Source of the DNA: Brevibacillus brevis NBRC 100599
GTDB taxonomy: Bacteria > Bacillota > Bacilli > Brevibacillales > Brevibacillaceae
Assembly: GCF_000010165.1 (NCBI RefSeq)
Contig: NC_012491.1
Span: forward strand, 1,606,001-1,670,000
Direction of reading: 5' to 3'
Length of the DNA: 64,000 nt
The notes below the pieces were generated by a model. The model did no database searches. It saw only the letters and a program-made list of their open reading frames with translations, and had not been told where the DNA came from. Below are positions 720 to 38,297 of this stretch, piece by piece (the stretch's first letter is position 1; each line of letters starts with the position of its first letter). The position numbers and the translations under genes are program-made.

Positions 720-1619
720 CTATTGTTTCATTCGTGGATCGAGAGCGTCCCTGAGGCCGTCCCCAAAGATGTTGAAGCCGAGAACAAGAGTTGCAATAGC
801 GAAACCAGGGAACATGGCCAGATGCGGAGCGGTAAACAAGAAGTCGCGTCCGTTACTGAGCATGGCGCCCCACTCCGGCAGAGGAGGCTGTGCTCCCAGT
901 CCGAGGAACGAAAGGCCAGCGGCGGAAAGAATCGCGGTAGCAAGGCGCATCGTTGCCTGTACGATAATAGGAGACAAAATGTTTGGAAAAATGTGTCTAA
1001 AGATAATCGTGAAGTCATTGGCACCGAGTGAGCGGATCGCATCGATGTACTCCAGTTTTTTCACCGTCAAAGTAGAGCCGCGGACAATCCGTGCAAATAC
1101 AGGAATCGAGAAGATACCAACGGCGATCATAACGTTAAAGAGACTCGGCCCTAAGGCACTGACAATGGCTAGAGAAAGCAGGATTCCCGGGAAGGCGAGG
1201 AGGACATCGATGATACGGGAGATGATCGTATCTACCCAGCCGCCGTAGTAACCGGATAATAAGCCGAGAATAATTCCGAAAAATGCACCAATAAAGACGG
1301 CGACAAATCCGACGGACATCGAGAGCTGTGTTCCGTATAAAAGACGGCTCAGTACATCCCGACCTTTGTCATCGGTACCCATCCAGTGTTCAGAAGATGG
1401 TGGCTTCAACTTGTTAACCAAGTCAATCTCATATGGATCGTGGGGCGCGATAAAAGGTGCCAGCAGGGCAATCGCGATGTAAAAAATCACGATACAGCCG
1501 CCTACCATGGCGAGTTTGTTTTTTCGTAGTTTCCTGTAAAAAGTCCGCCATCTGCTAGGGCGTGTAGCCGCTGCTTTCGGCGGAAGAGCTTGATTGGTTG
1601 GTGCGATCTCAACCTTCAT
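720..1619 (-). CDS. DppC/OppC-type ABC transporter permease
   Basis: This 299-residue inner-membrane permease pairs with the DppB-like protein downstream. It has the usual DppC N-terminal cytoplasmic segment with SRWRTFYRKLRKNKLAMVG, a first membrane helix at about residues 38-60, the APHDPYEID motif just after it, and the permease loop YIDAIRSLGAND that contacts the ATPase. Length and domain order are normal for the family. It is first in its operon. A weak promoter (TTGCCT at 1679-1674, TGATAA at 1655-1650, 18-bp spacer) overlaps the repeat array that serves the divergent amidohydrolase gene, so shared control is possible. The substrate cannot be read from a permease. Confidence 0.92.
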   Translation of the reverse strand: MKVEIAPTNQALPPKAAATRPSRWRTFYRKLRKNKLAMVGGCIVIFYIAIALLAPFIAPHDPYEIDLVNKLKPPSSEHWMGTDDKGRDVLSRLLYGTQLSMSVGFVAVFIGAFFGIILGLLSGYYGGWVDTIISRIIDVLLAFPGILLSLAIVSALGPSLFNVMIAVGIFSIPVFARIVRGSTLTVKKLEYIDAIRSLGANDFTIIFRHIFPNILSPIIVQATMRLATAILSAAGLSFLGLGAQPPLPEWGAMLSNGRDFLFTAPHLAMFPGFAIATLVLGFNIFGDGLRDALDPRMKQ

Positions 1620-1669
1620 GGTGTAACCCCTCCTTTGCTTACGTCAAAGTTATCAGAAAAATGTACGAA

Positions 1670-1754
1670 GTAAAGGCAATTTGAACAAGTCGTAAAAATA
1701 GTGAAAATAGACGTAAAGATTGTGCAAATCAAGTCTTTCAGCTTCCTAGATAAT
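1670..1754 (+). promoter_or_regulatory. 21-bp repeat-array promoter of the 1800 operon
   Basis: Three direct repeats start at 1670, 1692 and 1713 with GTAAAGG, GTAAAAATAGTGAAAAT and GTAAAGATTGTGCAAAT. A -10 box GATAAT lies at 1749-1754, 36 bp after the start of the last repeat. There is no recognisable -35; the last repeat occupies that place, as expected for an activator-dependent promoter. The same design occurs at five other places in the window. Confidence 0.75.
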
Positions 1755-1799
1755 GGGGGAGAAAGGAATGGAGAGAGACAAAGAGAGGGTGGATAATGG

Positions 1800-3035
1800 A
1801 TGGGCGTTACCTATTGGTTAACCAATGTTCGTTTGGAGACGGGCTACCGTCGGGAAAACGGTGTCGTCACGGGGACAGAGGCATCCTTGTTTCACATTTT
1901 AGTTAAAGACGGAAAATTCACGCGTATTGTACCAGAGACCGAGAAGCTTACAGACGGTATTTTGCAAAAGGATGCAAAAGGCTTATTGGCACTCCCATCT
2001 TTTGTAGAGAAGCATGTTCATTTGGACAAGACGCTTCAGGGAGAGCCATGGCGGGCTGTCATTCCTGTATCCAATATCATTGAACGCTGCGAAATTGAAA
2101 AGCGTACACTGCCGGGATTGCCGTCAACGACACAAGAGCGTGCGGAGAATCTGTTGGAGATCCTCTTGTCCTATGGCTCGACACACGTGCGTACACATGT
2201 GGACATTTACCCGGAAGTGGGAATCTCCAATTTGGAATCAGTAAAAGCAGCATTAGCAACCTACGCGGATCGAGTCACCCACGAGATCGTGGCATTCCCG
2301 CAGCATGGCTTGTTGCGTACAGATGCAAAAGCACTCTTGCGTGAGGCGTTGCGCCAAGGTGCGACTCATGTCGGGGGTGTAGACCCAGCTAATGTAGATG
2401 GCGATATAGAAGAATCCTTGCACCAAATGATGGAGCTAGCAGTAGAAGCAAACGCAGGTGTGGACTTGCATTTGCATGACCCAGGCCATTTGGGGACCTA
2501 CACGATGAAGCGACTGGCAGCAATGACCGTAGACGCTGGCTGGCAAGGCCGCGTGGCTGTCAGCCATGCGTTTGCGCTCGGAGACATCTCAGTGCAAGAA
2601 GCTGAAGAGATGGCGACGATCCTGCGGGAAGCAGGCATTACGATTATCACCAGCGTGCCATTTAGCCGCGTGATCCCACCTGTACAGCTACTGCACCAAA
2701 ATGGCGTAGACGTTGCGGTCGGCTGCGACAACATTTTTGACACATGGCAACCTTATGGAAATGGCGATGTACTGGAGCGCCTCTGGCGACTGGCAGAACG
2801 CAATCGTTGGCTGGACGAGCTGTCTTTGTCTCAATCGCTGCGTTTTATCACAGGGGGCAAAACGACGCTGGATGCCAACGGAACACAGCTGTGGCCTGTA
2901 CAAGGGGAAGACGCGAGCCTGATCCTCGTGGATGCGACCTGCTCGGCAGAAGCGATCGCGCGCCGTGCAGATCGACACGCTGTATTCTTCAAAGGCAACC
3001 TCGCTTCTGGTCAAGTGGAAGAAGTGAACGTTTAA
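1800..3035 (+). CDS. CodA-like amidohydrolase, paralog 1
   Basis: This 411-residue cytoplasmic enzyme belongs to the cytosine deaminase branch of the amidohydrolase superfamily, metal-dependent enzymes that hydrolyse cyclic amides or amidines. Compared with E. coli CodA the metal ligands are present: His72 and His74, His224, His256 and Asp310 (GCDNIFD). The substrate-side motif AFPQ (Gln168) is kept. The catalytic glutamate of CodA (HCDE) is replaced by Asp227 in HLHDPG. ATG 1800 has GAGAGGGTGG at good spacing. It is first in an operon with two further paralogs. The differences around the active site mean the substrate need not be cytosine; I do not assign one. Confidence 0.88.
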   Translation: MGVTYWLTNVRLETGYRRENGVVTGTEASLFHILVKDGKFTRIVPETEKLTDGILQKDAKGLLALPSFVEKHVHLDKTLQGEPWRAVIPVSNIIERCEIEKRTLPGLPSTTQERAENLLEILLSYGSTHVRTHVDIYPEVGISNLESVKAALATYADRVTHEIVAFPQHGLLRTDAKALLREALRQGATHVGGVDPANVDGDIEESLHQMMELAVEANAGVDLHLHDPGHLGTYTMKRLAAMTVDAGWQGRVAVSHAFALGDISVQEAEEMATILREAGITIITSVPFSRVIPPVQLLHQNGVDVAVGCDNIFDTWQPYGNGDVLERLWRLAERNRWLDELSLSQSLRFITGGKTTLDANGTQLWPVQGEDASLILVDATCSAEAIARRADRHAVFFKGNLASGQVEEVNV

Positions 3036-3051: not shown

Positions 3052-4275
3052 GTGAAATCTTCTCCTTATTGGATCGTCAACGCTCGATTGGAAATCGGGT
3101 ATGAGTGGGAAGAAGGCGTGATCAGTGGAACGCGGACAGAGCTGTGCGATTTGCTCATTGAACATGGAAAAATCACACGCATTGTCCCTTCCAGTGAAAT
3201 TTTGGAGGATGGGCTGCCTAAAAAGGACGCGAAGGGCTTACTGATTTTGCCGTCTATGGCGGAGAAGCACATTCATCTGGAAAAAACGTATTACGGCGGC
3301 CCATGGAAGGCAACAACTCCCGTAAAAAACTTGTTCGAACGCCACGCTGAGGACAGAGAGCTGTTGCCGATGTATCTCAAGCAGGCACAGACAGGAGCAG
3401 AAAATATACTCTCGCTGCTGGTGGAAACAGGCGTTACGCATGTAAGAACGCATTGTCATGTGGACCCACAGGTTGGGCTAGGGTTTTTGGAAGGAATGAA
3501 GAGTGCGTTTGAGACGTATGCAGACCGCGTCTCCCACGAAATCGTTGCTTTCCCGCATTACGGCATGCTGCGGACACAAGCACGCGACATGGTACGTGAG
3601 GCACTGCGTCAAGGCGCCACTCATGTAGGCGGCGTCGATCCGGGTGGAGTAGATGGCGACATCGAGCGTTCCCTGCAAACGATGCTAGAGCTGGCTGTAG
3701 AAGCGGATGCCGACATTGACATGCATTTGCATGATCCAGGGCATCTCGGAGTGTTTACGATGAAGCGTCTTGCTGCTCTGACGGAAGAGGCAGGCTGGCA
3801 GGGACGTGTCACGATTAGTCACGCGATGGGATTGGGCGATGTTTCGCAGGAAGAAGCCAGAGAGATGGCGCAACGCCTCGCCTCGCTTGGCATCTCCATC
3901 GCCTCGACCGTTCCGATCAATCGCCCGACCATTCCGATTCCGTTGCTGCATCAAGAAGGCGTAGCCGTCATGCTCGGCAACGATAGCCTGACAGACAACT
4001 GGACCCCCTTTGGCAGTGGAGACCTGTTGGAAAAAGCAGGACGATTGGCTGAACGCTTCCGCTTGACGGATGAAAGATCGTTAGGCGTAGCACTTGGCTT
4101 TGTGACAGAGGGGCGGATCACTCTCGATGAAACCGGGAATCGCCTGTGGCCATTGGTTGGCGATGAGGCGAGCCTGATGGCGGTCGAAGCGACATGTTCA
4201 GCAGAAGCAGTTGCGAGACGTGCGAAGCGCAAGGTCGTTCTTTTCCAAGGCAACCGGGTCGCGGGTGACTGGTAG
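3052..4275 (+). CDS. CodA-like amidohydrolase, paralog 2
   Basis: This 407-residue paralog starts at a GTG 16 nt after the previous gene, with GAGGGGGG upstream. The metal ligands are conserved (HIHLEK at His73/His75, His225, His257, Asp311), and the acid position is Asp228 in HLHDPG. It differs from the other four copies in the substrate-side motif: AFPH (His169) instead of AFPQ. In E. coli CodA the matching glutamine contacts the pyrimidine ring, so this copy probably handles a different compound. It also has HLEK where the others have HxDK. Second gene of a three-paralog operon. Confidence 0.87.
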   Translation: MKSSPYWIVNARLEIGYEWEEGVISGTRTELCDLLIEHGKITRIVPSSEILEDGLPKKDAKGLLILPSMAEKHIHLEKTYYGGPWKATTPVKNLFERHAEDRELLPMYLKQAQTGAENILSLLVETGVTHVRTHCHVDPQVGLGFLEGMKSAFETYADRVSHEIVAFPHYGMLRTQARDMVREALRQGATHVGGVDPGGVDGDIERSLQTMLELAVEADADIDMHLHDPGHLGVFTMKRLAALTEEAGWQGRVTISHAMGLGDVSQEEAREMAQRLASLGISIASTVPINRPTIPIPLLHQEGVAVMLGNDSLTDNWTPFGSGDLLEKAGRLAERFRLTDERSLGVALGFVTEGRITLDETGNRLWPLVGDEASLMAVEATCSAEAVARRAKRKVVLFQGNRVAGDW

Positions 4276-4309: not shown

Positions 4310-5527
4310 ATGTCTACAGCCTATTGGATTACCAACGTCCGCTTGGAGAGCGGATACCGCAAAGAAAATGACAAGGTGGTTGCTACAGATACTGAAGTGG
4401 CGCATCTATTAATCGAAGACGGACGAATTGCACAGATCGTGAGTGGAGCAGCTCCACAAACCGAGCTGCCAACGAAGGATGCCAGCGGTCTATTGGCACT
4501 GCCGTCATTCAGGGATATGCACATCCACATCGATAAAACGTACTATGGTGGCCCTTGGAAAGCCGTGACGCCAGTAAAAAGCATCCTGGGTCGACTGGAA
4601 GAAGAGAGCCAGCTCATGCCGAAGCTGTTGCCAACAGCACAAGAGCGGGCAGAAAAAATGCTGGAATTGCTGCTGTCCGCAGGCTCCACCCATATTCGCT
4701 CCCATTGTAATATCGATCCGTATATCGGACTCAAAAACCTGGAAGCGACCATGGCAGCACTGGAGACATTTAGCGGCAGATTGCAGTGCGAGGTCGTGGC
4801 CTTCCCGCAGCAAGGTCTTTTGCGAAGCAACCAAGTGGAAAACATCCGCCAAGCCTTGAAGATGGGCGCGACCTACGTTGGTGGTGTGGACCCGGCGACA
4901 GTGGATCAAAACATCGAGAAATCGCTCGCTACCATTTTTGAGCTGGCAGTCGAAGCGAATGCACCTATCGACGTTCACTTGCATGATCCAGATCATCTCG
5001 GGGTGTTTACATTCAAACGTCTCGCTAAAATGACCGAAGAAGCAGGGTGGCAAGGTCGCGTTACCATCAGCCATGCCAACTCCCTTGCTGACATCAGCCT
5101 GGAAGAAGCAGGGGAAGTAGCAGAAATGCTAGCTGGTTTGGGCATTTCGATCACTTCCACTGTACCAGTGAACAGAGGAACAATTCCAATTCCATTGCTG
5201 CATGAGAAAGGCGTGTCGGTGTCTCTCGGAGACGATAGTATTACCGATCACTGGTCGCCATTTGGTCAAGGAGACAGCTTGGAAAAAGCAGGCCGCTTGG
5301 CAGAGCGCTTCCGCATGCAGGACGAGCGTTCCCTGTCCCAAGCACTAGGCTTCATAACAGGTGGGAAGACGCCGTTGGATAAAGAGGGCAACCGCCTGTG
5401 GCCGAATGTTGGCGACGAAGCGGATATTGTATTCGTTCATGCATCCTCGGCAGCAGAAGCAGTTGCACGCCGTGCGAAGCGCCAAGCAGTCATGTTCCGA
5501 GGGAATGTCGTTTCTGGGACTTTGTAA
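4310..5527 (+). CDS. CodA-like amidohydrolase, paralog 3
   Basis: This 405-residue paralog closes the three-gene operon. It keeps HIHIDKTYYGG (His71/His73), AFPQ (Gln167), HLHDPD (His223, Asp226), His255 and GDDSITDHW (Asp309). The start ATG 4310 follows GAAAGGATGTC. The N-terminal ITNVRLESGY block is shared by all five paralogs and belongs to the small beta domain that is completed by the C-terminus. A strong hairpin terminator follows at 5543-5581. The three copies are clearly diverged, so this is an old expansion and not a recent tandem duplication. Confidence 0.87.
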   Translation: MSTAYWITNVRLESGYRKENDKVVATDTEVAHLLIEDGRIAQIVSGAAPQTELPTKDASGLLALPSFRDMHIHIDKTYYGGPWKAVTPVKSILGRLEEESQLMPKLLPTAQERAEKMLELLLSAGSTHIRSHCNIDPYIGLKNLEATMAALETFSGRLQCEVVAFPQQGLLRSNQVENIRQALKMGATYVGGVDPATVDQNIEKSLATIFELAVEANAPIDVHLHDPDHLGVFTFKRLAKMTEEAGWQGRVTISHANSLADISLEEAGEVAEMLAGLGISITSTVPVNRGTIPIPLLHEKGVSVSLGDDSITDHWSPFGQGDSLEKAGRLAERFRMQDERSLSQALGFITGGKTPLDKEGNRLWPNVGDEADIVFVHASSAAEAVARRAKRQAVMFRGNVVSGTL

Positions 5528-21721: not shown

Positions 21722-22963
21722 CTACTTTGTTTCTCCCATTCTCTCCAAAGCACCATGCACAATTTTCCCTTTAAACATAACAGCAGCCCGACGAGATTTT
21801 CTCGCAATCGCTTCCGCAGAGCAGGAGCTTTCTGCAAACACGATGCTCGCCTCGTCGCCAACCTTTGGCCATGCACGGTTGCCATCTTTATCGAGCGTTG
21901 TTTTTCCTCCGGTGATGAAGTACAACGATTGCACCAATGATATCTCATCGACCCAACGGTAGCGTTCAACCAGACGGTTTAGCTTATCCAGCATATCGCC
22001 TGTACCATATGGCGACCACGAATCGTAGAACCCATCATAACCAAGTGCGACTTGTACACCTTTGGCATGAAGCATCGGAACAGGTGGCATTGCACGATTA
22101 ATCGGAACGGTTGTCATGATCATCGTTCCCAGCTGGGACAATCGATCTGCCATGTCCGAGGACTCCTCCATCGACACATCTCCGAGCGCAAAGGCATGAC
22201 TGATTGCCAAACGGTTCTGCCAGCCAGCTTCCTCGGTTAGATCAAGCAGTCTTTTGATCGTATAAAAGCCGAGTGTCCCCGGATCATGCAGGTGAATATC
22301 GACATCTGCATCTGCTTCCACCGCAATGTCCATCATTTCACGCAAGGAGCCTTCCAATTCATTATCAATCCCAGCCGGGTCCAAGCCCCCAACCAGTGTA
22401 GCGCCTTCCTTCATCGCTTGTCTCATCAAGGAGCTTGCTTGTGTGCGCAACAGCCCCTGCTGCGGGAAAGCAACGATTTCATACGTCAGACGATCACTGT
22501 ACTCTTCTAGTGCTGCACGCACACCCTCTAGGTTTTTCAGCCCGATGTATGGATCGATGTTCACGTGTGTGCGCACATGTGTGGCACCGCCTTTAATATG
22601 GAGCTGGAGCATCGCTTGAGCACGCTCTTTGGTCGTTCCCGTCATCAGCGGCATTTCTTTTGCTTCGAACTCCAAGCGATCGATCAGTTTTTTCGGAGGG
22701 AGGCAGGATTTCCAGGTTGCGCCTGCATACGTTTTATCCAGATGATTATGCTTTTCAACAAAAGAGGGGAGGGCCAATAAACCTTTTGCATCTTCTTGTG
22801 GTAAAGGGGTGTCGAGTGGTTCGGTCGCGGATACGATCTCTGCGATTTTGCCGTCTTCGATTTTTAAATGACAGATCTCCGAGATTGTGTGAAAGACACC
22901 GTCGTCTCCTGTTTCAAATCCTTTATCGAGACGGACGTTGGTTAACCAAAAAGCTTGTATCAC
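21722..22963 (-). CDS. CodA-like amidohydrolase, paralog 4
   Basis: This 413-residue paralog is encoded alone on the minus strand. It keeps the two metal histidines in KHNHLDK (72 and 74), AFPQ, HLHDPG, the later SHA histidine and an aspartate in GYDGFYDSWSPYG. Between the metal motif and helix 1 it reads TYAGATWKSCLPP, where the other copies have GGPWKA or GEPWRA. It is divergent from the TrzA-like gene at 23247, with separate repeat-array promoters for each between them. Confidence 0.87.
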   Translation of the reverse strand: MIQAFWLTNVRLDKGFETGDDGVFHTISEICHLKIEDGKIAEIVSATEPLDTPLPQEDAKGLLALPSFVEKHNHLDKTYAGATWKSCLPPKKLIDRLEFEAKEMPLMTGTTKERAQAMLQLHIKGGATHVRTHVNIDPYIGLKNLEGVRAALEEYSDRLTYEIVAFPQQGLLRTQASSLMRQAMKEGATLVGGLDPAGIDNELEGSLREMMDIAVEADADVDIHLHDPGTLGFYTIKRLLDLTEEAGWQNRLAISHAFALGDVSMEESSDMADRLSQLGTMIMTTVPINRAMPPVPMLHAKGVQVALGYDGFYDSWSPYGTGDMLDKLNRLVERYRWVDEISLVQSLYFITGGKTTLDKDGNRAWPKVGDEASIVFAESSCSAEAIARKSRRAAVMFKGKIVHGALERMGETK

Positions 22964-23246: not shown

Positions 23247-24716
23247 ATGAAAAAGAAAATAACCGCAAAATATGTCATCGGTTTTGACGGCGAAGATCAT
23301 GTGATTATCAAAGATGGGGAAGTCGTTTACGAGAATGACACCATTTTGTATGTGGGGCACCATTTTGATGGCGAGGTAGATGAAGTAATCGATGCGGGCA
23401 ATGCAGTAGTCAGTCCGGGCTTCATTGACCTGAATGCGTTGGGTGATATTGATCACGACATCTTACATTTGGAGCAAGCCTCTGCTCGAAACAAAAACAT
23501 GCTCTGGTCGGAAGACTACTACCGTAAAGGCTACCATGAGGTAATGACCCCTGAGGAAGAGGCATTCAAATCCCTTTACGCCTATAGTCAACTGATTCTA
23601 AATGGAGTAACGACAGCGATGCCGATTACATCCGTTTTCTACAAGCGCTGGGCGGAAACGTATGAGGAGCTGGCAGCCGCAGCTGTTCATGCAGGGCGCT
23701 TGGGATTGCGTATGTACATGGGGCCGAGCTATCAGTCCGGCATGCGTGTTGTGAAGGCAAATGGAGAGATCGAAGTACTGTGGAACGAAGCAGAAGGACA
23801 AGCAGGGCTGGAGCGGGCTGTCCAATTTGTCAAAGATTTCGATGGGGCTCACAACGGACTCATCCGTGGAATGCTGGCACCAGAGCGAATCGAGTCACAG
23901 TCTGTAGAAAACCTGATCAACACAAAGCACTTCAGCGAGGAGCTCGGATGTCCGATCCGTCTGCATGCTGCACAAGGTCTCTATGAATATACGGAAATCC
24001 ATCGTCGTCATAGCAAATCACCGATTCAGTTCCTGAATGAGATCGGCTTCCTCGGGAAGAAAACAGCAATTCCGCACGCACATTTCATTCCAGGCTTTAG
24101 TAAAGCGAAATTCGGTGAGGGAGACGATTTGGCGATCCTGCAAGAGACAGGTACGACCGTGATTCACTGCCCGCTCGTAGTAGGCCGCCACGGTGAGGCT
24201 CTCGAATCGTTTGCCCGTTACAAACGTCGCGGCGTCAACATCGCGATTGGAACCGATACGTTCCCGCCTGACTTCATCCAAAACATTCGCACAGCCAGCA
24301 TGCTGTCTCGGTTGGTGGAAGGCGATGTTACGGATTCCAGCTACGCGGATATTTACCGCGCAGCGACATTGGGCGGCGCACGCTTCCTTGGCAGAGATGA
24401 TCTGGGACGATTGGCACCGGGGGCAAAAGCAGATATCATTGCTATCGATCTGGACGGTTTCCACATGGGTGCGGTTGATGATCCAATCCGTACGATCATC
24501 ACGTGTGGCTCAGGCCGTGATGTGAAGCTCTCCATCATCGCTGGGCGCACCGTGATGAAAGACCGCCTCCTGCCAGGAGTTGATCTGGAAGAGATCAGAG
24601 CGAAAGGACAGCGTTACTTTGACAAAATGCGTCTAGGCTACGTCGAGCGCGACTATCAACAGCTGGGCGAAAAAGAGCTGTTCAAGCCATCTTTCCCAAT
24701 CGTGAGTAAACCATAG
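23247..24716 (+). CDS. TrzA-like amidohydrolase with altered first metal motif
   Basis: This 489-residue protein belongs to the TrzA/SAH-deaminase branch of the amidohydrolases. The N-terminal beta domain leads to PGFIDLNALGDIDHD at residues 57-71, where family members normally have PGFxNxHxH; here the two histidine positions are Asn63 and Leu65. The later metal residues look present: His240 (LHAAQ), His277/His279 (PHAHF) and Asp337 (GTDTFPPD). The protein may bind one metal through a changed ligand set. ATG 23247 has AGGGAGG upstream, and the open frame before it lies in the promoter. It shares the repeat-array promoter of the cluster. Confidence 0.85.
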   Translation: MKKKITAKYVIGFDGEDHVIIKDGEVVYENDTILYVGHHFDGEVDEVIDAGNAVVSPGFIDLNALGDIDHDILHLEQASARNKNMLWSEDYYRKGYHEVMTPEEEAFKSLYAYSQLILNGVTTAMPITSVFYKRWAETYEELAAAAVHAGRLGLRMYMGPSYQSGMRVVKANGEIEVLWNEAEGQAGLERAVQFVKDFDGAHNGLIRGMLAPERIESQSVENLINTKHFSEELGCPIRLHAAQGLYEYTEIHRRHSKSPIQFLNEIGFLGKKTAIPHAHFIPGFSKAKFGEGDDLAILQETGTTVIHCPLVVGRHGEALESFARYKRRGVNIAIGTDTFPPDFIQNIRTASMLSRLVEGDVTDSSYADIYRAATLGGARFLGRDDLGRLAPGAKADIIAIDLDGFHMGAVDDPIRTIITCGSGRDVKLSIIAGRTVMKDRLLPGVDLEEIRAKGQRYFDKMRLGYVERDYQQLGEKELFKPSFPIVSKP

Positions 24717-28860: not shown

Positions 28861-28914
28861 TTAGTCATGTCATATTCATTTCATTCTATCATCCAGAATA
28901 AGGGGGCATTCACA

Positions 28915-30519
28915 GTGAAGAAGAAGCACATGCTACGATCCATTCTCGCCCTGTCTGTCTTGGTTTCCACAGTCTTGACAGGCTGTGGTGGCAGTCAGAC
29001 GTCCAGTGGGACGAATTCCGCGTCCAACTCCAATCAAGCTTCGACTAGCCCCGCGTCTTCATCCGCCGCAGCAGGTGGAGGTGGTACCCTGATTATTGCG
29101 CGCTTGTCCGATGCCAATAATCTGGACCCGCATTTTAGTACCCAGATTAACTCCATGGCGGTGACGCAGCACAAGCTCTATGAAGGTCTGGTCATGATGG
29201 ATCGGAATAGCGAGTACAAACCTCTTTTGGCAAAAGAATGGAAACAAAAAGATGATGTCACCTGGGAGTTCACACTGCGTGACGGTGTTACCTTCCACGA
29301 TGGGGAGCCTTTTAATGCGGAAGCGGTGAAAAAGACGATCGACCGCATCTTGGACAAAGACAATCCGACTCCCAAAGCAAACATGTTTGGCATGATTAAA
29401 GAAGTGAAGGTCATTGACCCACTGAAGGTGGAGATTATTTTACATTATCCGTTCGCAGGGCTCCTGTCCGTTCTGGCTAGTGCCGAGGGTGGCATCATTA
29501 GTCCGAAGGCGATGAAGGAATTTGGCAAAGAGTTGTCCAAGAAACCAGTAGGGACGGGGCCGTTCATCTTTGAATCATGGACACCTGGACAAGAAATCGT
29601 CTTGGTGAGAAACGAGAAGTATTGGGGAAACAAGCCGAAGCTGGAAAAAGTCGTTTTCAAGACCATCCCTGAGGATGCGACACGTGTAGCCATGGTGGAG
29701 ACAGGGGAAGCTCATGTCGCAGAGCAGCTACCGGTCACTGAACTGGAAAGGGTACAGAACTCGCAGAGCATGTCTTTGGGGCGGTTCGAATCATTCGCGG
29801 TTGACCATATCGGGATGAACGTCAAGCAGAAGCCTTTTGACGATGTTCGTGTCCGTCAGGCCATCGCCCATGCGATTGATAAGGAAGCAATTATTAAAGG
29901 GGTCTATAACAATGTCGGAAAAGTAGCCATCTCGTCATTAGGTCCAAAAGTCATCGGCTATAGCCCGAATATTAAAACGCCAGACTACGATTTGAATAAA
30001 GCGAAGCAATTGCTCACCGAAGCAGGCTACGCCAACGGATTCAAGGCAACCATCTATCTCAATGACAACAAGGCGCGGATCAATGTGGCAGAAGTGCTGC
30101 AATCCCAGCTGAAGGGAATCGGGATCGACTTGCAGATTCAAGTGATGGAGTTCGGCGCGTATTTGGAATTGGCGGCAAAAGGGGAAGCGCAAATGTTCAT
30201 TAGTGGCTGGGGCAATGCGACCGGGGATGCCGATTACAACCAGTACAACCTCTTTCACAGCACGTCAGCAGGTGTGCCAGGCAACCATTCCTTCTACAAT
30301 AATCCGAAAGTCGATGCGCTGATCGAGGCGGGGCGTAAGGAAAAAGATCCAGAGAAGCGCAAGGAAATCTACGCAGAGGCGCAGCAAATCGAGATGGAGG
30401 AGGTGCCGTTGTTGCCATTCCGCAGCAGTGAAAACCTCGCAGCCATTGCAAAAAATGTACAGGGTGTGTACATCAGTCCATCCGGGTACATTGACGTGAG
30501 CCAAGTCACAATTCAATAG
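28915..30519 (+). CDS. oligopeptide-type binding lipoprotein, paralog 1
   Basis: This 534-residue extracytoplasmic solute-binding protein of family 5 (DppA/OppA type) feeds a DppBC permease. It has a signal peptide with lipobox LTGC near residue 24, a Ser/Asn-rich linker, ARLSDANNLDPHF, DDVTWEFTLRDGVTFHDGEPFNAEAVK and FDDVRVRQAIAHAIDKEAI. GWGNATGDADYNQYNLFHS lies near residue 440 on the substrate side. GTG 28915 with AGGGGG at 8-nt spacing is chosen over the upstream start. It groups with paralog 2 by the TIYLNDNKAR and EFGAY segments. Confidence 0.88.
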   Translation: MKKKHMLRSILALSVLVSTVLTGCGGSQTSSGTNSASNSNQASTSPASSSAAAGGGGTLIIARLSDANNLDPHFSTQINSMAVTQHKLYEGLVMMDRNSEYKPLLAKEWKQKDDVTWEFTLRDGVTFHDGEPFNAEAVKKTIDRILDKDNPTPKANMFGMIKEVKVIDPLKVEIILHYPFAGLLSVLASAEGGIISPKAMKEFGKELSKKPVGTGPFIFESWTPGQEIVLVRNEKYWGNKPKLEKVVFKTIPEDATRVAMVETGEAHVAEQLPVTELERVQNSQSMSLGRFESFAVDHIGMNVKQKPFDDVRVRQAIAHAIDKEAIIKGVYNNVGKVAISSLGPKVIGYSPNIKTPDYDLNKAKQLLTEAGYANGFKATIYLNDNKARINVAEVLQSQLKGIGIDLQIQVMEFGAYLELAAKGEAQMFISGWGNATGDADYNQYNLFHSTSAGVPGNHSFYNNPKVDALIEAGRKEKDPEKRKEIYAEAQQIEMEEVPLLPFRSSENLAAIAKNVQGVYISPSGYIDVSQVTIQ

Positions 30520-31222: not shown

Positions 31223-31361
31223 GAAATATGCGCGAATGGTCAAAATATTCAAGTACATCTGGCGCAAAAAGCGGTCACGACTGTTTTTTTGACCGCAAGC
31301 AGTCACATCAACATGGATGAAAAACATCGAGACGTTTTTCACAAAAGAGGGGGATAACTAC

Positions 31362-32948
31362 ATGAAAAAGACGCGCTTTTTCCAGACGCTGCTTGCCATG
31401 ACCGTTGCGGTTTCTACAGCGTTGGCAGGCTGCTCACAAGCACCTGAAGCAGGAGGGACTTCCAATTCTTCAGGGCAAACCAATGCTTCATCACCAGCTG
31501 GCAAAGAAGGCGGGACACTCGTCATCGCTCGCTTGTCTGATGCGAACAACCTTGACCCACATTTTCTAACGCAAATCAATTCCGCCGCCATCATTCATCA
31601 CAAGGTATACGAGGGTCTCGTTCGGATGGACAAAGAAAGCAAATATGTAGGCTCACTCGCTTCTGAATGGAAGCAGCTCGATGATGTGACATGGGAATTC
31701 AAGCTCCGCTCTGGTGTGACATTCCACGATGGCACGCCATTCAATGCGGAAGCTGTGAAAAAGACGATTGCACGTGTTCAAGACCCGGCTGTAGGCTCTA
31801 ACCGCGCCAATTTGTTTGAAGCCATTAAGGAAGTAAAGGTCGTGGATGATACAACGGTTCGATTCATCCTGCACTATCCATACGCACCACTCCTGTCTGT
31901 GCTCGCCAGTGCGGAGGGGGGAATTTTGTCACCAAAAGCGATTGAACAGTATGGGAAAGATTTGACCAAGCATCCAACGGGAACAGGGCCTTATAAATTC
32001 GAATCATGGACACCTGGACAAGAAGTCGTCCTGGTGAAAAACGACAGCTATTGGGGCGACAAACCGAAGCTGGATAAAGTCGTCTTCAAGACCGTTCCAG
32101 AGGATACGACCAGACTCGCGATGGTCGAGACAGGAGAGGCGAATGTAGCTGAGCAATTGCCAGTGACAGAAGTTGATCGGGTGAAAAATTCTCCGAGTAT
32201 GACACTTGGCCGTTACCCTGCTTTCGCTAGCGATCATATCGGGATTAACAACTCGAAGAAGCCATTCGATGATGTACGCGTTCGTCAAGCGATTGCACAT
32301 GCGATCGATAAGAAAACCATCCTTCAAGGGGTCTACAACGATGTCGGGACGGTTGCTCATTCCTCCATTACCCCGTCCATGGTTGGTTACAGCCCGAATG
32401 TAAAAGACTTGCCTTACGATCTGGAAAAATCCAAAAAGCTGTTGGTGGAAGCTGGATACGGAAACGGCTTCAAAGCAACCATTTACTTAAATGATAACAA
32501 GGCACGAGTAAGCTTGGCAGAGGTGCTGCAGCAACAGCTGAAACAAATCAATATCGATTTGGAAGTGAAAGTGCTAGAGTTCGGTGCTTATATTGAAGCA
32601 GCCAACAAAGGCGAAACAGAATTGTTCCTCAGCGGTTGGGGAAATGCCACAGGCGATGCAGACTACAACCAATACAATCTGTTCCACACGAAGTCGCAAG
32701 GGGCAGCCGGCAACCATGCTTTCTACAGCAATCCGGAAGTGGACAAGCTGATCGATGAGGGCCGCAAAGAGAAAGACGAAGAAAAACGGAAGCAAATCTA
32801 CGAAAAAGCACAGCAAATCGAAATGGACGAAGCGGCAATGGTACCATATCGCTTCTCAGAAAACCTCGCAGCGATTCAAAAAGGCGTAGAAGGAGTTTGG
32901 ATCAGCCCAGCAGGACACATTGAGATCGACGATGTAACCATGCCATAA
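31362..32948 (+). CDS. oligopeptide-type binding lipoprotein, paralog 2
   Basis: This 528-residue solute-binding lipoprotein has a lipobox LAGC near residue 23 and the same framework as paralog 1: ARLSDANNLDPHF, FDDVRVRQAIAHAIDKKTI, ATIYLNDNKARVSLAEVLQ and GWGNATGDADYNQYNLFHT. ATG 31362 follows AGAGGGGGAT. It is first in an operon with paralog 3 and amidohydrolase 5. This puts a binding protein and a hydrolase on one transcript, which is the best local evidence that uptake and hydrolysis serve the same compounds. Confidence 0.9.
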   Translation: MKKTRFFQTLLAMTVAVSTALAGCSQAPEAGGTSNSSGQTNASSPAGKEGGTLVIARLSDANNLDPHFLTQINSAAIIHHKVYEGLVRMDKESKYVGSLASEWKQLDDVTWEFKLRSGVTFHDGTPFNAEAVKKTIARVQDPAVGSNRANLFEAIKEVKVVDDTTVRFILHYPYAPLLSVLASAEGGILSPKAIEQYGKDLTKHPTGTGPYKFESWTPGQEVVLVKNDSYWGDKPKLDKVVFKTVPEDTTRLAMVETGEANVAEQLPVTEVDRVKNSPSMTLGRYPAFASDHIGINNSKKPFDDVRVRQAIAHAIDKKTILQGVYNDVGTVAHSSITPSMVGYSPNVKDLPYDLEKSKKLLVEAGYGNGFKATIYLNDNKARVSLAEVLQQQLKQINIDLEVKVLEFGAYIEAANKGETELFLSGWGNATGDADYNQYNLFHTKSQGAAGNHAFYSNPEVDKLIDEGRKEKDEEKRKQIYEKAQQIEMDEAAMVPYRFSENLAAIQKGVEGVWISPAGHIEIDDVTMP

Positions 32949-32971: not shown

Positions 32972-33011
32972 ATCAGCATAGCTTCGTCCATTGGGAACGA
33001 GCTATGCTGAT
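32972..33011 (+). promoter_or_regulatory. hairpin between binding proteins 2 and 3
   Basis: ATCAGCATAGCT (32972-32983) pairs exactly with AGCTATGCTGAT (33000-33011). No T run follows, so it is more likely an mRNA processing or stability hairpin than a terminator. It ends 39 bp before the start of paralog 3. Confidence 0.6.
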
Positions 33012-33049
33012 TGATTATACAAAGAAAGAATAAAATGGGGGCGAGTCTA

Positions 33050-34621
33050 GTGAAAAAACAAAAGATGCTAGGTTCAATGCTGGTAGGTATTCTGAGCGTT
33101 GGCCTCGTGCTTACAGGCTGTTCATCGGGTACAGAGCAAGGTACGGCAGGGACTCCGACTGCGAAGGAAGCTCCGGCAACGGATCAGACGCTGGTGATTG
33201 CACGGCAGTCTGACGCAAACAATCTGGATCCGCACTTTATTTCAGCGATCAATGCAGCGAGTGTGGTCCATCACAATGTGTACGAAGGTCTTGTCCAGCG
33301 AGATGATAACATGGCGTTCAAACCAATGCTAGCCACGGAATGGAAGCAGTTGGACGATGTCAACTGGGAGTTCAAGCTACGTCAGGGAGTCAGCTTCCAC
33401 GATGGTACGCCGTTTAACGCCGAAGCGGTGAAAGCAACATTCGCACGCGTACGCGATGAAAAAGTCGCCTCTCCACGCGCGTCTCAGTTTAAGATGCTTT
33501 CGGAAATAAAAGTAGTGGATGATTACACCGTGCAATTCAAGTTAGCCTACCCGTACTCCCCATTACTGTCGATCCTCGCCAACCACGAAGGCAGCATCAT
33601 CAGCCCAAAAGCAATAGAGCAATATGGCAAGGACCTGAGCAAACATCCCGTCGGTACAGGACCGTTTGTATTCGAATCGTGGACACCTGGCCAAGAGATT
33701 GTACTCGTGAAAAATGACAATTACTGGGGAGAGAAGGTAAAATTCAAGAAGGCCGTCTTCAAAGTCGTACCGGAGGACACGACCCGCGTAGCCATGGTAG
33801 AGACGGGAGAGGCGCACATCGCTGAACCATTGCCGGTAACGGAAATTGACCGCGTCAGTAATTCCCCTCATATGAGCTTGTACCGAACAGAGGGTTTAGG
33901 GACAGATTTCATCGGGTTCAATACCAAGAAGAAGCCGTTTGACGACATCCGTGTTCGTCAGGCGATCAACTATGCGATTGAGACAGATGCGATTATCAAA
34001 GGTGTGTACAACGATGTCGGAACGAAAGCGAATTCAGCAGTGAGTCCGAAGGTTCTAGGATACGATGGGGCGTTAAAAGGATACGAGTTCGATCCGAATA
34101 AGGCGAAGGCCCTGTTAAAAGAAGCAGGCTACCCAGACGGCTTCAAGACAACCTTGTGGACAGGCGATCGCAAGGAACGGATTAATGCTGCGGAAGTCAT
34201 TCAGTCCCAGTTAAAAGGAATCGGCATTGATGTAGAGGTAAAAGTGCTTGAGTATGGAGCTTATTTGGATGCAGAAGACAACGGTGAGACAGAGCTGTTC
34301 ATCAGCGGCTGGGGCAATGCCACTGGAGACGCTGACTACAACCAGTACAATCTGTTCCACTCCAGTTCTTTGGGCAAAGGCGGTAACACAACATTCTACG
34401 TGAATAAAGAAGTGGACAAGCTGATCGAAGAGGGGCGCCGCGAGCAGGATACGGAAAAACGCAAGCAAATTTATGGGAAGGTATTGGAGATTGAAAAGCA
34501 AGAAGCACCAATCGTCCCGATCCGCAATCTTGAACATGTCGCTGCAGTCAGCAAAAACATCAAAGGCTTCTGGATCAGCCCTTCTGGGTATATGATGATC
34601 AAAGGCATTACGATCGAATAA
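33050..34621 (+). CDS. oligopeptide-type binding lipoprotein, paralog 3
   Basis: This 523-residue solute-binding lipoprotein has a lipobox LTGC near residue 22 and the ARQSDANNLDPHF, FDDIRVRQAINYAIETDAI and GWGNATGDADYNQYNLFHS blocks. It groups with paralog 4, sharing SPRAS, GSIISPKAI and GDRKERINAAEVIQSQLKG, where paralogs 1 and 2 have a YLNDNKAR segment. The starting GTG 33050 follows GGGGGCGAG; the frame is open further upstream through the hairpin. Middle gene of its operon. Confidence 0.88.
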   Translation: MKKQKMLGSMLVGILSVGLVLTGCSSGTEQGTAGTPTAKEAPATDQTLVIARQSDANNLDPHFISAINAASVVHHNVYEGLVQRDDNMAFKPMLATEWKQLDDVNWEFKLRQGVSFHDGTPFNAEAVKATFARVRDEKVASPRASQFKMLSEIKVVDDYTVQFKLAYPYSPLLSILANHEGSIISPKAIEQYGKDLSKHPVGTGPFVFESWTPGQEIVLVKNDNYWGEKVKFKKAVFKVVPEDTTRVAMVETGEAHIAEPLPVTEIDRVSNSPHMSLYRTEGLGTDFIGFNTKKKPFDDIRVRQAINYAIETDAIIKGVYNDVGTKANSAVSPKVLGYDGALKGYEFDPNKAKALLKEAGYPDGFKTTLWTGDRKERINAAEVIQSQLKGIGIDVEVKVLEYGAYLDAEDNGETELFISGWGNATGDADYNQYNLFHSSSLGKGGNTTFYVNKEVDKLIEEGRREQDTEKRKQIYGKVLEIEKQEAPIVPIRNLEHVAAVSKNIKGFWISPSGYMMIKGITIE

Positions 34622-34658: not shown

Positions 34659-35879
34659 ATGAAAGCAAGCTTGTGGATCAAAAATGCGAGTCTGGAATGT
34701 GGGTATATAGAGGAGAATGGCATCGTGACGGGAACAAAGACGGAGCGTTTCCACGTCTTGCTCACGGACGGTCGCGTTGAGAAAATCGTACCTGCGCTGT
34801 CAGATATACCTGACGGGGTATCTGTGTGGGATGCACAAGGCCTACTGATGCTTCCTTCTTTCCGGGAAATGCACATTCATTTAGACAAAACATTTTATGG
34901 AGGTCCGTGGCAAGCTGTTCTTCCTGCTCCCAATCGTTTTTTTCGAATCGAGCAAGAGCAGGAACTGCTACCCCTCCAGCTTCCCGTTGCCCGTGAGCGT
35001 GCAGAAAAGCTGCTGGAGCTAGTGCAATCGCACGGCGCTACTCACGTGCGGACGCATTGCAACATTGACCCGGTCATTGGGCTGAAAAATCTGGAAGCCA
35101 CATTAGAGGCATTGGCGACTTACCGTGAAAAACTTTCCTGGGAAATTGTCGCGTTTCCCCAACATGGCTTGCTGCGCAGTGATTCTGTTTCCCTCGTTCG
35201 TGAGGCGATGAAGCATGGAGCCGGACTCGTCGGTGGTGTCGATCCTGCCACGTTTGACGATGATATCGAGAAATCACTTGATACGATGATGGATATAGCG
35301 GTTGAAGCGAATGCGGATGTGGACATTCACCTGCACGAGCCTGGTCATTTGGGTGTTTATATGATGAAAAAATTGGCTGCAATGACGAAGGATGCGGGGT
35401 GGCAAGGTCGAGTCACTGTCAGCCATGCTTACGGGCTAGGAGAGGTACCGACTGCGGTGGCCAAAGAGGTCGCGGAGCTTTTCACCGAGCAGCAAATCGC
35501 TGTCATGTCGGCTGTTCCCATTGATATGCCAACCATCCCAATTCCGTTGCTTCATGCCAAAGGCGTCCATGTTGGATTGGGCAATGACAACATTACTGAT
35601 CATTGGGACCCATTTGGAACAGGAGATATGCTGCAAAAGGCAAACCGTCTGGCTGAACGGTTCCGGTGGATCGATGAGCGATCTCTATCGCGTGCACTGG
35701 GATTCGTTACAGGTGGCGTGACCCCACTGGATCAAGCTGGCAATCAAGTTTGGCCGAAAGTCGGAGATGAGGCAAATGCGGTTTTTGTCCGTGCCAAATG
35801 CTCCGCCGAGGCTGTGGCCAGACTATCTCCGAAGGAAGCAGTGGTTTTCTCGGGCAAGATAGTTTGGCAGAAACAATAA
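34659..35879 (+). CDS. CodA-like amidohydrolase, paralog 5
   Basis: This 406-residue paralog closes the operon of binding proteins 2 and 3. Metal residues are His72/His74 (MHIHLDK), His224, His256 and Asp310 (GNDNITDHW). It alone carries glutamate at the catalytic acid position (HLHEPG, Glu227), as in E. coli CodA; the other four have aspartate. AFPQ is Gln168. ATG 34659 follows AAAAGGATGGGAG. The D/E exchange at that one place supports its catalytic role in the whole set. Confidence 0.88.
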   Translation: MKASLWIKNASLECGYIEENGIVTGTKTERFHVLLTDGRVEKIVPALSDIPDGVSVWDAQGLLMLPSFREMHIHLDKTFYGGPWQAVLPAPNRFFRIEQEQELLPLQLPVARERAEKLLELVQSHGATHVRTHCNIDPVIGLKNLEATLEALATYREKLSWEIVAFPQHGLLRSDSVSLVREAMKHGAGLVGGVDPATFDDDIEKSLDTMMDIAVEANADVDIHLHEPGHLGVYMMKKLAAMTKDAGWQGRVTVSHAYGLGEVPTAVAKEVAELFTEQQIAVMSAVPIDMPTIPIPLLHAKGVHVGLGNDNITDHWDPFGTGDMLQKANRLAERFRWIDERSLSRALGFVTGGVTPLDQAGNQVWPKVGDEANAVFVRAKCSAEAVARLSPKEAVVFSGKIVWQKQ

Positions 35880-36722: not shown

Positions 36723-38297
36723 ATGAAGAAAACGGGCATGGTCGGTTCCTTGTTGGCTCTGACATTGACGGTTAGTGTTGCGCTGACTGGATGTGGTGGT
36801 GCGAACTCGGAGCAATCCGGTTCGACGAATACAACTGCTGCTGAAGCGCCGAAAGAAGGGGGAACCCTGATTGTCGCTCGCAAGGCAGACGCCAATAATC
36901 TGGACCCGCATTTCATCTCCAATATTCCTTCGGCAAACTATGTGTATGGAAAAGTGTATGAGAGCTTGGTTTCTCGCGATAAAAACGGCGAGTACAAGCC
37001 TACTCTAGCAACTGAATGGAAACAGCTCGATGACTTGACATGGGAGTTCAAGCTCCGTGAGGGTGTTACGTTCCACGATGGTACACCCTTTACAGCAGAC
37101 GCTGTGAAAAAGACGTTCGAACGTGTACGCGATCCAAAGGTTGCATCACCGCGTGCATCCAACTTCTCCATGATCAAGGAAATTAAGATCGTAGATGATA
37201 AGACAGTACATTTCGTACTGGAGTATCCTTTTGCACCGCTGCTCTCCATCTTGGCTAGCTCAGAAGGAAGTATCATTAGCCCGAAAGCAATCGCCGAGCA
37301 TTCCGATACATTGGCGAAGCAGCCTGTGGGAACCGGACCTTTCAAATTTACATCATGGGCACCGGGTCAAGAAATGAAACTCGCAAAAAATGATACCTAC
37401 TGGGGTGAAAAGCCAAAGGTAGATGAAGTATTGTATAAGGTTGTTCCAGAAGATACGACGCGTGTAGCGATGATCGAAGCAGGCGAAGCGCACATCGGCG
37501 ACCAGCTTCCCGTGACGGAAGTAGAGCGTGCACAGGCATCTCCTGGGATGAACATGGTGCGTGCAGAAGGCTTGGGTGTGGATTACATCGGCTTTAACGT
37601 GCAGAAAAAGCCATTTGATGATGTACGTGTACGTCAAGCTGTCGCACATGCTATCGAAAAGCAAGCCATTGTACAAGGGGTATACAACAATGTAGGAACA
37701 CAGGCTGTTTCCTCGCTGTCACCAAAAGTCATCGGCTACAACCCGAATCTCCAGGATTACGCGTATGACGTCAATGCAGCAAAAGCACTGCTCGCAGAAG
37801 CAGGTTACCCAAACGGCTTCAAGACAACCATCGTGACAGATGACCGTAAAGAGCGCATGAACGTAGCAGAAGTCATCCAGTCACAGTTGAAAGGCATCGG
37901 CATTGATTTGGAGATCAAAGTAATGGAATACGGTGCGTATCTGGAGTACGCAGACAATGGTGAGCATGCGATGTTCATCGGGGGCTGGGGCAATGCAACA
38001 GGGGATGGCGACTACAACCAGTACAACGTCTTCCACAGCACTTCGAAAGGCAGCGCAGGTAACATGGCGTTCTACAACAATCCAGAGGTAGACAAGCTGA
38101 TTGAAGAAGGACGTCGCGAAAAAGATGCGCAAAAACGCAATGAAATTTACGCAAAGCTGCAAGAAATCGAGCTGAAGGAAGTACCGATTCTTCCAATCCG
38201 TACGATTGATCATGTGGCGGTTACGTCCAAGAATGTAAATGGCTTCTGGCTGAGCCCTGTTGGCTACTTGATGCTGGATGATGTATCGATCAACTAA
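36723..38297 (+). CDS. oligopeptide-type binding lipoprotein, paralog 4
   Basis: This 524-residue solute-binding lipoprotein has a lipobox LTGC near residue 24. It keeps ARKADANNLDPHF, FDDVRVRQAVAHAIEKQAI and GWGNATGDGDYNQYNVFHS, with small changes from the other copies in each (K for the S/Q before DANN, GDGDYN for GDADYN). It groups with paralog 3. ATG 36723 follows CAGGGGG. It forms its own transcription unit with a repeat-array promoter and a terminator. Confidence 0.9.
   Translation: MKKTGMVGSLLALTLTVSVALTGCGGANSEQSGSTNTTAAEAPKEGGTLIVARKADANNLDPHFISNIPSANYVYGKVYESLVSRDKNGEYKPTLATEWKQLDDLTWEFKLREGVTFHDGTPFTADAVKKTFERVRDPKVASPRASNFSMIKEIKIVDDKTVHFVLEYPFAPLLSILASSEGSIISPKAIAEHSDTLAKQPVGTGPFKFTSWAPGQEMKLAKNDTYWGEKPKVDEVLYKVVPEDTTRVAMIEAGEAHIGDQLPVTEVERAQASPGMNMVRAEGLGVDYIGFNVQKKPFDDVRVRQAVAHAIEKQAIVQGVYNNVGTQAVSSLSPKVIGYNPNLQDYAYDVNAAKALLAEAGYPNGFKTTIVTDDRKERMNVAEVIQSQLKGIGIDLEIKVMEYGAYLEYADNGEHAMFIGGWGNATGDGDYNQYNVFHSTSKGSAGNMAFYNNPEVDKLIEEGRREKDAQKRNEIYAKLQEIELKEVPILPIRTIDHVAVTSKNVNGFWLSPVGYLMLDDVSIN

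Follow-up and report, generated by a model that had tools for sequence, protein, structure and literature searches.

The window, that is, the whole stretch of 64,000 nucleotides of Brevibacillus brevis NBRC 100599 that was analysed, contains on its forward strand an open reading frame (23247-24713, stop codon 24714-24716) encoding an amidohydrolase-fold protein of 489 amino acids without the HxH motif. The frame starts with an ATG at 23247 and has a Shine-Dalgarno-like GGGAGG directly 5' of it. The product matches the NCBIfam profile NF004801/PRK06151, 'chlorohydrolase family protein', over its full length (residues 1-487) with 752 bits against a curated cut-off of 416, and Pfam Amidohydro_1 with 105.6 bits (gathering score 25; E 4.3e-30). 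The PRK06151 family is already catalogued in NCBIfam, and the model, which also takes in an HxH-bearing protein (L006, 432.5 bits, above the cut-off of 416), does not set the HxH-less proteins apart. By sequence the closest PDB relatives belong to the TRZ/ATZ and MTA/SAH/8-oxoguanine deaminase group (7ww2, 3hpa, 4dyk, 4v1x AtzA and 3lsb triazine hydrolase). An AlphaFold2 model reached a mean pLDDT of only 45.7, which is explained by the shallow alignment of nine close sequences.

The divergent neighbour (21722-22963, reverse strand) encodes an AtzC/cytosine-deaminase-like amidohydrolase (PRK06846; NF005312, 594 bits) in which the HxH motif is intact (EKHNHLDK). Its best PDB match is 6nbo, an N-isopropylammelide isopropylaminohydrolase, and the PDB entries closest to it are cytosine deaminases and N-isopropylammelide hydrolases of the AtzC type. 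A second PRK06846-type gene with an intact HxH motif is found downstream (34659-35879, forward strand; NF005312, 585.6 bits). Altogether five paralogues of this AtzC/cytosine-deaminase-like kind lie in one 34-kb stretch, four on the forward strand (1800-3035, 3052-4275, 4310-5527 and 34659-35879) and one on the reverse (21722-22963); HxH is intact in all of them and the other four are 51-56% identical to the 21722 copy. Also downstream of the HxH-less gene are four paralogous forward-strand genes encoding family-5 (SBP_bac_5) substrate-binding proteins of ABC importers (28867-30519, Pfam PF00496 with E 1.2e-107; 31317-32948; 33011-34621; 36723-38297), and no permease or ATPase gene was found among these four, which together span about 9.5 kb.

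Loss of the HxH motif on strand beta1

The beta1 motif of the protein, PGFIDLNALGDIDHD (residues 57-71; 23415-23459, forward strand), has N63 and L65 in the HxH columns of the alignments, followed by the invariant D67 and D69. The earlier note had described a TrzA-like amidohydrolase without HxH, and this was confirmed, as N63-x-L65 stands where TrzA/SAH-deaminase-like amidohydrolases have H-x-H; the residue numbers given there (N63, L65, H240, H277, H279 and D337) were also right. In a profile-profile alignment to HxH-bearing relatives there was no gap across PGFIDLNALGD, and N63 and L65 fell on the two His columns. The hmmsearch alignments to two PDB chains opened a 2-residue gap at beta1, which puts L65 and D67 on these columns, and HxH is absent there too, so that the His pair is restored in neither register.

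The absence is no accident of a single gene: HxH is missing from all 21 members of the clade described below, whereas the L65 column is His in 28/28 HxH-type relatives. All 21 share the motif D61-L-[N/D/E]63-A-x-x-D67-x-D69, in which Leu62 and Ala64 are constant, any of N, D and E occurs at 63, and position 65 is Leu except in the member L005, which has Asp. An Asp/His-rich metal site in the GDIDH segment had been proposed for this protein; D67 and D69 are indeed invariant, but H70 is variable, being Thr in the alphaproteobacterial members, and the site as worded is not supported. This leaves only Asp67 and Asp69 as candidates, and there is no conserved His near beta1 among the clade members. 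Residues 61, 63 and 65 of beta1 in HxH enzymes probably face the barrel interior, and D61, N/D63, L65, D67 and D69 all fall on alternate positions of the same parity, so that the last two might extend to the barrel mouth, close to H240, H277 and D337.

Other active-site residues

Three of the remaining positions are unchanged throughout the clade. His240 on beta5 (23964-23975, together with Gln243), His277 on beta6 (24075-24077) and Asp337 on beta8 (24255-24257), all on the forward strand, are present in 21/21 members, and in the Brevibacillus protein they stand where the earlier note placed them; His279, which it had paired with His277, is not conserved. Since His70 and His279 both vary within the clade, a metal site built on either of them was rejected. 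Position 243, the catalytic Glu of HxxE, is Glu in 28/28 HxH-type relatives and Gln in 20/21 clade members, including the Brevibacillus protein. The full set of invariants among the 21 members is D61, D67, D69, P126, W135, E137, E141, H240, E247, H277 and D337, of which P126, W135, E137 and E141 are new to the clade and mark a clade-specific segment (23622-23669, forward strand). The active site is not uniform within the clade, since L005 (genome G118, 1030-2544, reverse strand), which adjoins a sodium:solute symporter gene, has E63, D65 and E243.

The protein and its clade are in the same Pfam fold family as the TRZ/ATZ and MTA/SAH/8-oxoguanine deaminase group, with which they share His240, His277 and Asp337, and the beta5 His, beta6 His and beta8 Asp expected of the TRZ/ATZ type (alpha-mononuclear, subtype III-like) are found in 21/21. 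However, the two features that define this type, HxH and the HxxE Glu, are both absent from the Brevibacillus protein (HxH 0/21 in the clade; Q243), and the clade has the extra W-x-E...E segment. To our knowledge, the beta6 His is normally not a metal ligand in the alpha-mononuclear TRZ/ATZ group.

Distribution, phylogeny and selection

Relatives were drawn from Brevibacillus, Neobacillus and two other Bacillota genomes, and further ones from plasmid records of Rhodococcus, Arthrobacter, Leisingera, Sulfitobacter, Alloyangia, Gemmobacter, Sinorhizobium/Ensifer and Rhizobium. A Paenibacillus protein (L069) was set aside, as it looks NagA-type and adjoins, by reading only, a glucosamine-6-phosphate-deaminase-like ORF. 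The HxH-less proteins, 21 of the 38 in the tree, came out as a single group (support 100/99, present in 100% of bootstrap trees), which spans Bacillota, Actinomycetota and Alphaproteobacteria. Two scans of viral contigs turned up a fragment of one relative but no protein of the clade. One plasmid cluster, that of Sinorhizobium medicae pSU277_2 (L081/L084), holds two HxH-less copies a few kb apart. The nearest HxH-bearing relatives (L006, L079 and L086, the last two being long branches) already have Gln243, from which the change from Glu to Gln appears to be earlier than the loss of HxH.

Intact copies of the gene are present in 13 further Brevibacillaceae genomes and across the three phyla. 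Pairwise dN/dS among the Bacillota orthologues was 0.019-0.083 where dS was measurable, figures that are rough because many dS values are near saturation. Such low values (0.02-0.08) indicate that the gene is not decaying and is kept as a protein. Two copies are broken: that of B. centrosporus (L068:6001-7465) shifts frame at about residue 105, possibly through a sequencing error, and that of genome G199 (L048) is cut after about residue 263. A changed active site in the clade is well supported by these comparisons, because the change has a single origin and is strongly conserved, Asp67 and Asp69 are new invariants, and the catalytic Glu243 has become Gln.

Gene context in other genomes

Among 39 Brevibacillaceae genomes 16 carry the HxH-less gene and 16 the PRK06846-type neighbour family, with 15 carrying both (Fisher p 1e-8, a statistic that ignores shared ancestry). 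In genome G230 the gene has a PRK06846-like amidohydrolase on one side and an HxH-bearing one on the other. In most of the distant loci a family-5 ABC importer, with a homologue of the 28867-30519 product, and a PRK05985/06846 amidohydrolase adjoin the gene. In the alphaproteobacterial loci its neighbours are a PRK05985-type amidohydrolase and the genes of a peptide-type ABC importer, namely a family-5 substrate-binding protein, two permeases and two ATPases; a GntR regulator, a flavin reductase and a racemase of the Asp/Glu/hydantoin family are often present as well. The Neobacillus locus (L067) has the importer and the HxH-less gene; there, and in Arthrobacter (L074) and Rhodococcus (L070), a partner amidohydrolase is absent within 6 kb on each side. 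Such gene company suggests that the substrate is imported from outside and is an amide of the ring type or a nitrogen heterocycle.

In several loci a third type of amidohydrolase, with HAH or HGH on beta1 (L071:8455-9885, L079:6541-7980, L046:1-1479 and L070:7473-8984), adjoins either the HxH-less gene or the sister gene that has HxH. It gave no match above the cut-off with the NCBIfam models.

Possible function of the protein

In the literature searched, which came largely from outside the subscription journals, no paper naming the PRK06151 family was found. Nor was any description of the family's lost metal site or of a subtype with its motif, which with that scope is weak evidence, and nothing direct was found on amidohydrolase pseudoenzymes or on this gene set. 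Several known proteins can nevertheless be compared. In molinate hydrolase one His of HxH is Asn, and the only metal ligands are waters and the His residues of beta5 and beta6 (PMC4407906). This enzyme and the phenylurea hydrolases PuhA and PuhB, a subgroup with its metal on the beta5/beta6 His, resemble the clade protein in having Asn at one HxH His. The second His is still present in molinate hydrolase, whose catalysis involves a Lys, whereas the clade protein keeps neither His (N63, L65); molinate hydrolase was not among the sequence matches of the Brevibacillus protein. In E. coli NagA both beta1 His are replaced, as in the clade, and with QxN for HxH it is still an active one-metal enzyme (PMC6016474); NagA-type enzymes, however, have a metal-binding Glu and differ from the clade protein in subfamily and substrate.

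The reading ranked first, at a little short of an even chance, is that of a working catabolic amidohydrolase-fold enzyme whose active site was rebuilt once and which has a predicted displaced single-metal site; it stands first because molinate hydrolase holds its metal with a damaged HxH and NagA works with QxN. The rebuilding would have occurred in the ancestor of the clade now found in three phyla, an HxH-bearing TRZ/ATZ-like hydrolase in which the HxxE Glu was apparently already Gln. Both beta1 His of the alpha-metal site would then have been lost and the beta5 His240, beta6 His277 and beta8 Asp337 retained, while E137/E141 were gained, as were Asp67 and Asp69 along one and the same face of beta1/loop 1. 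One divalent metal may be bound by His240 and His277 in a beta-like position, with water and perhaps Asp67/Asp69 as its further ligands, and Asp337 may be the general acid/base, as in molinate hydrolase. The substrate would be delivered by the family-5 ABC importer, and the enzyme would act in the same pathway as its AtzC/cytosine-deaminase-like neighbour. A working site is favoured by the conservation of H240, H277 and D337 and by the newly gained pair of Asp residues. Against this, the catalytic Glu and two of the four alpha ligands have been lost, as would also be expected of a protein that is metal-free or non-catalytic; moreover, a shift of the metal position must be assumed, since the beta6 His does not usually bind the metal in the alpha-mononuclear group. 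The site also varies (L005), and two Brevibacillus copies are broken.

Second comes a metal-free enzyme, which is rather unlikely, in which Asp67/Asp69, His240, His277 and Asp337 would serve as acid/base and substrate-binding residues for hydrolysis, lactonase, isomerase or lyase chemistry. Loss of both HxH His and of the HxxE Glu strips away the deaminase machinery of the parent group while purifying selection is strong, and the superfamily is known to include enzymes that work independently of metal (PMC12017989); the invariance of three metal-type residues in 21/21 members speaks against it.

Third, and unlikely to be correct, the protein may be a non-catalytic partner, a structural or regulatory subunit of the neighbouring HxH-intact amidohydrolase. 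The precedent is pseudo-dihydroorotase (pDHO), which is inactive yet required for ATCase activity (PMC7053772); in Pseudomonas a pDHO chain plays this part for ATCase. Pseudo-dihydroorotases too have the amidohydrolase fold without the zinc ligands and serve as a partner subunit, but their partner is ATCase, and fungal pDHO has also lost substrate-binding residues. Such a role would fit the fact that the gene is almost always found together with the AtzC-like gene and next to it; it would also fit genome G199, which has only the truncated copy and no partner gene. Nevertheless, the loss of active-site conservation that marks a pseudo-enzyme was not seen (H240, H277, D337, D67, D69 and E137 are invariant): the active-site positions are among the most conserved and polar invariants specific to the clade have appeared. 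In addition, the Arthrobacter, Rhodococcus and Neobacillus loci have no such partner nearby.

A canonical triazine/chlorohydrolase-type zinc enzyme, its ligands only displaced by a gap, would agree with the family name and the TRZ/ATZ-like profile matches; it is very improbable, as the clade has no conserved His near beta1, HxH is absent in both possible registers and the catalytic Glu is missing too. A decaying pseudogene or sequence error, which the frameshifted B. centrosporus and truncated G199 copies might suggest, is refuted for the window copy by the intact genes in 13 other Brevibacillaceae genomes and three phyla and by the low dN/dS.

Significance

Members of the amidohydrolase superfamily are classed by the ligands of their metals. 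It is possible, though doubtful, that the clade is a new active-site subtype, in which D-L-[N/D]-A-L-x-D-x-D and Gln for the HxxE Glu replace the HxH metal site, with a reaction new to this fold. For the PRK06151 clade lacking HxH the name "chlorohydrolase" is probably misleading, judging from its residues, because the two metal-binding His and nearly always the catalytic Glu have been replaced; the finding suggests that this widely copied annotation is wrong for these proteins. With HxH and the catalytic Glu lost, yet with strong selection maintained and an importer and an intact amidohydrolase encoded alongside, this clade of three phyla offers a natural test case for the ways in which the fold shifts its metal use or its chemistry.
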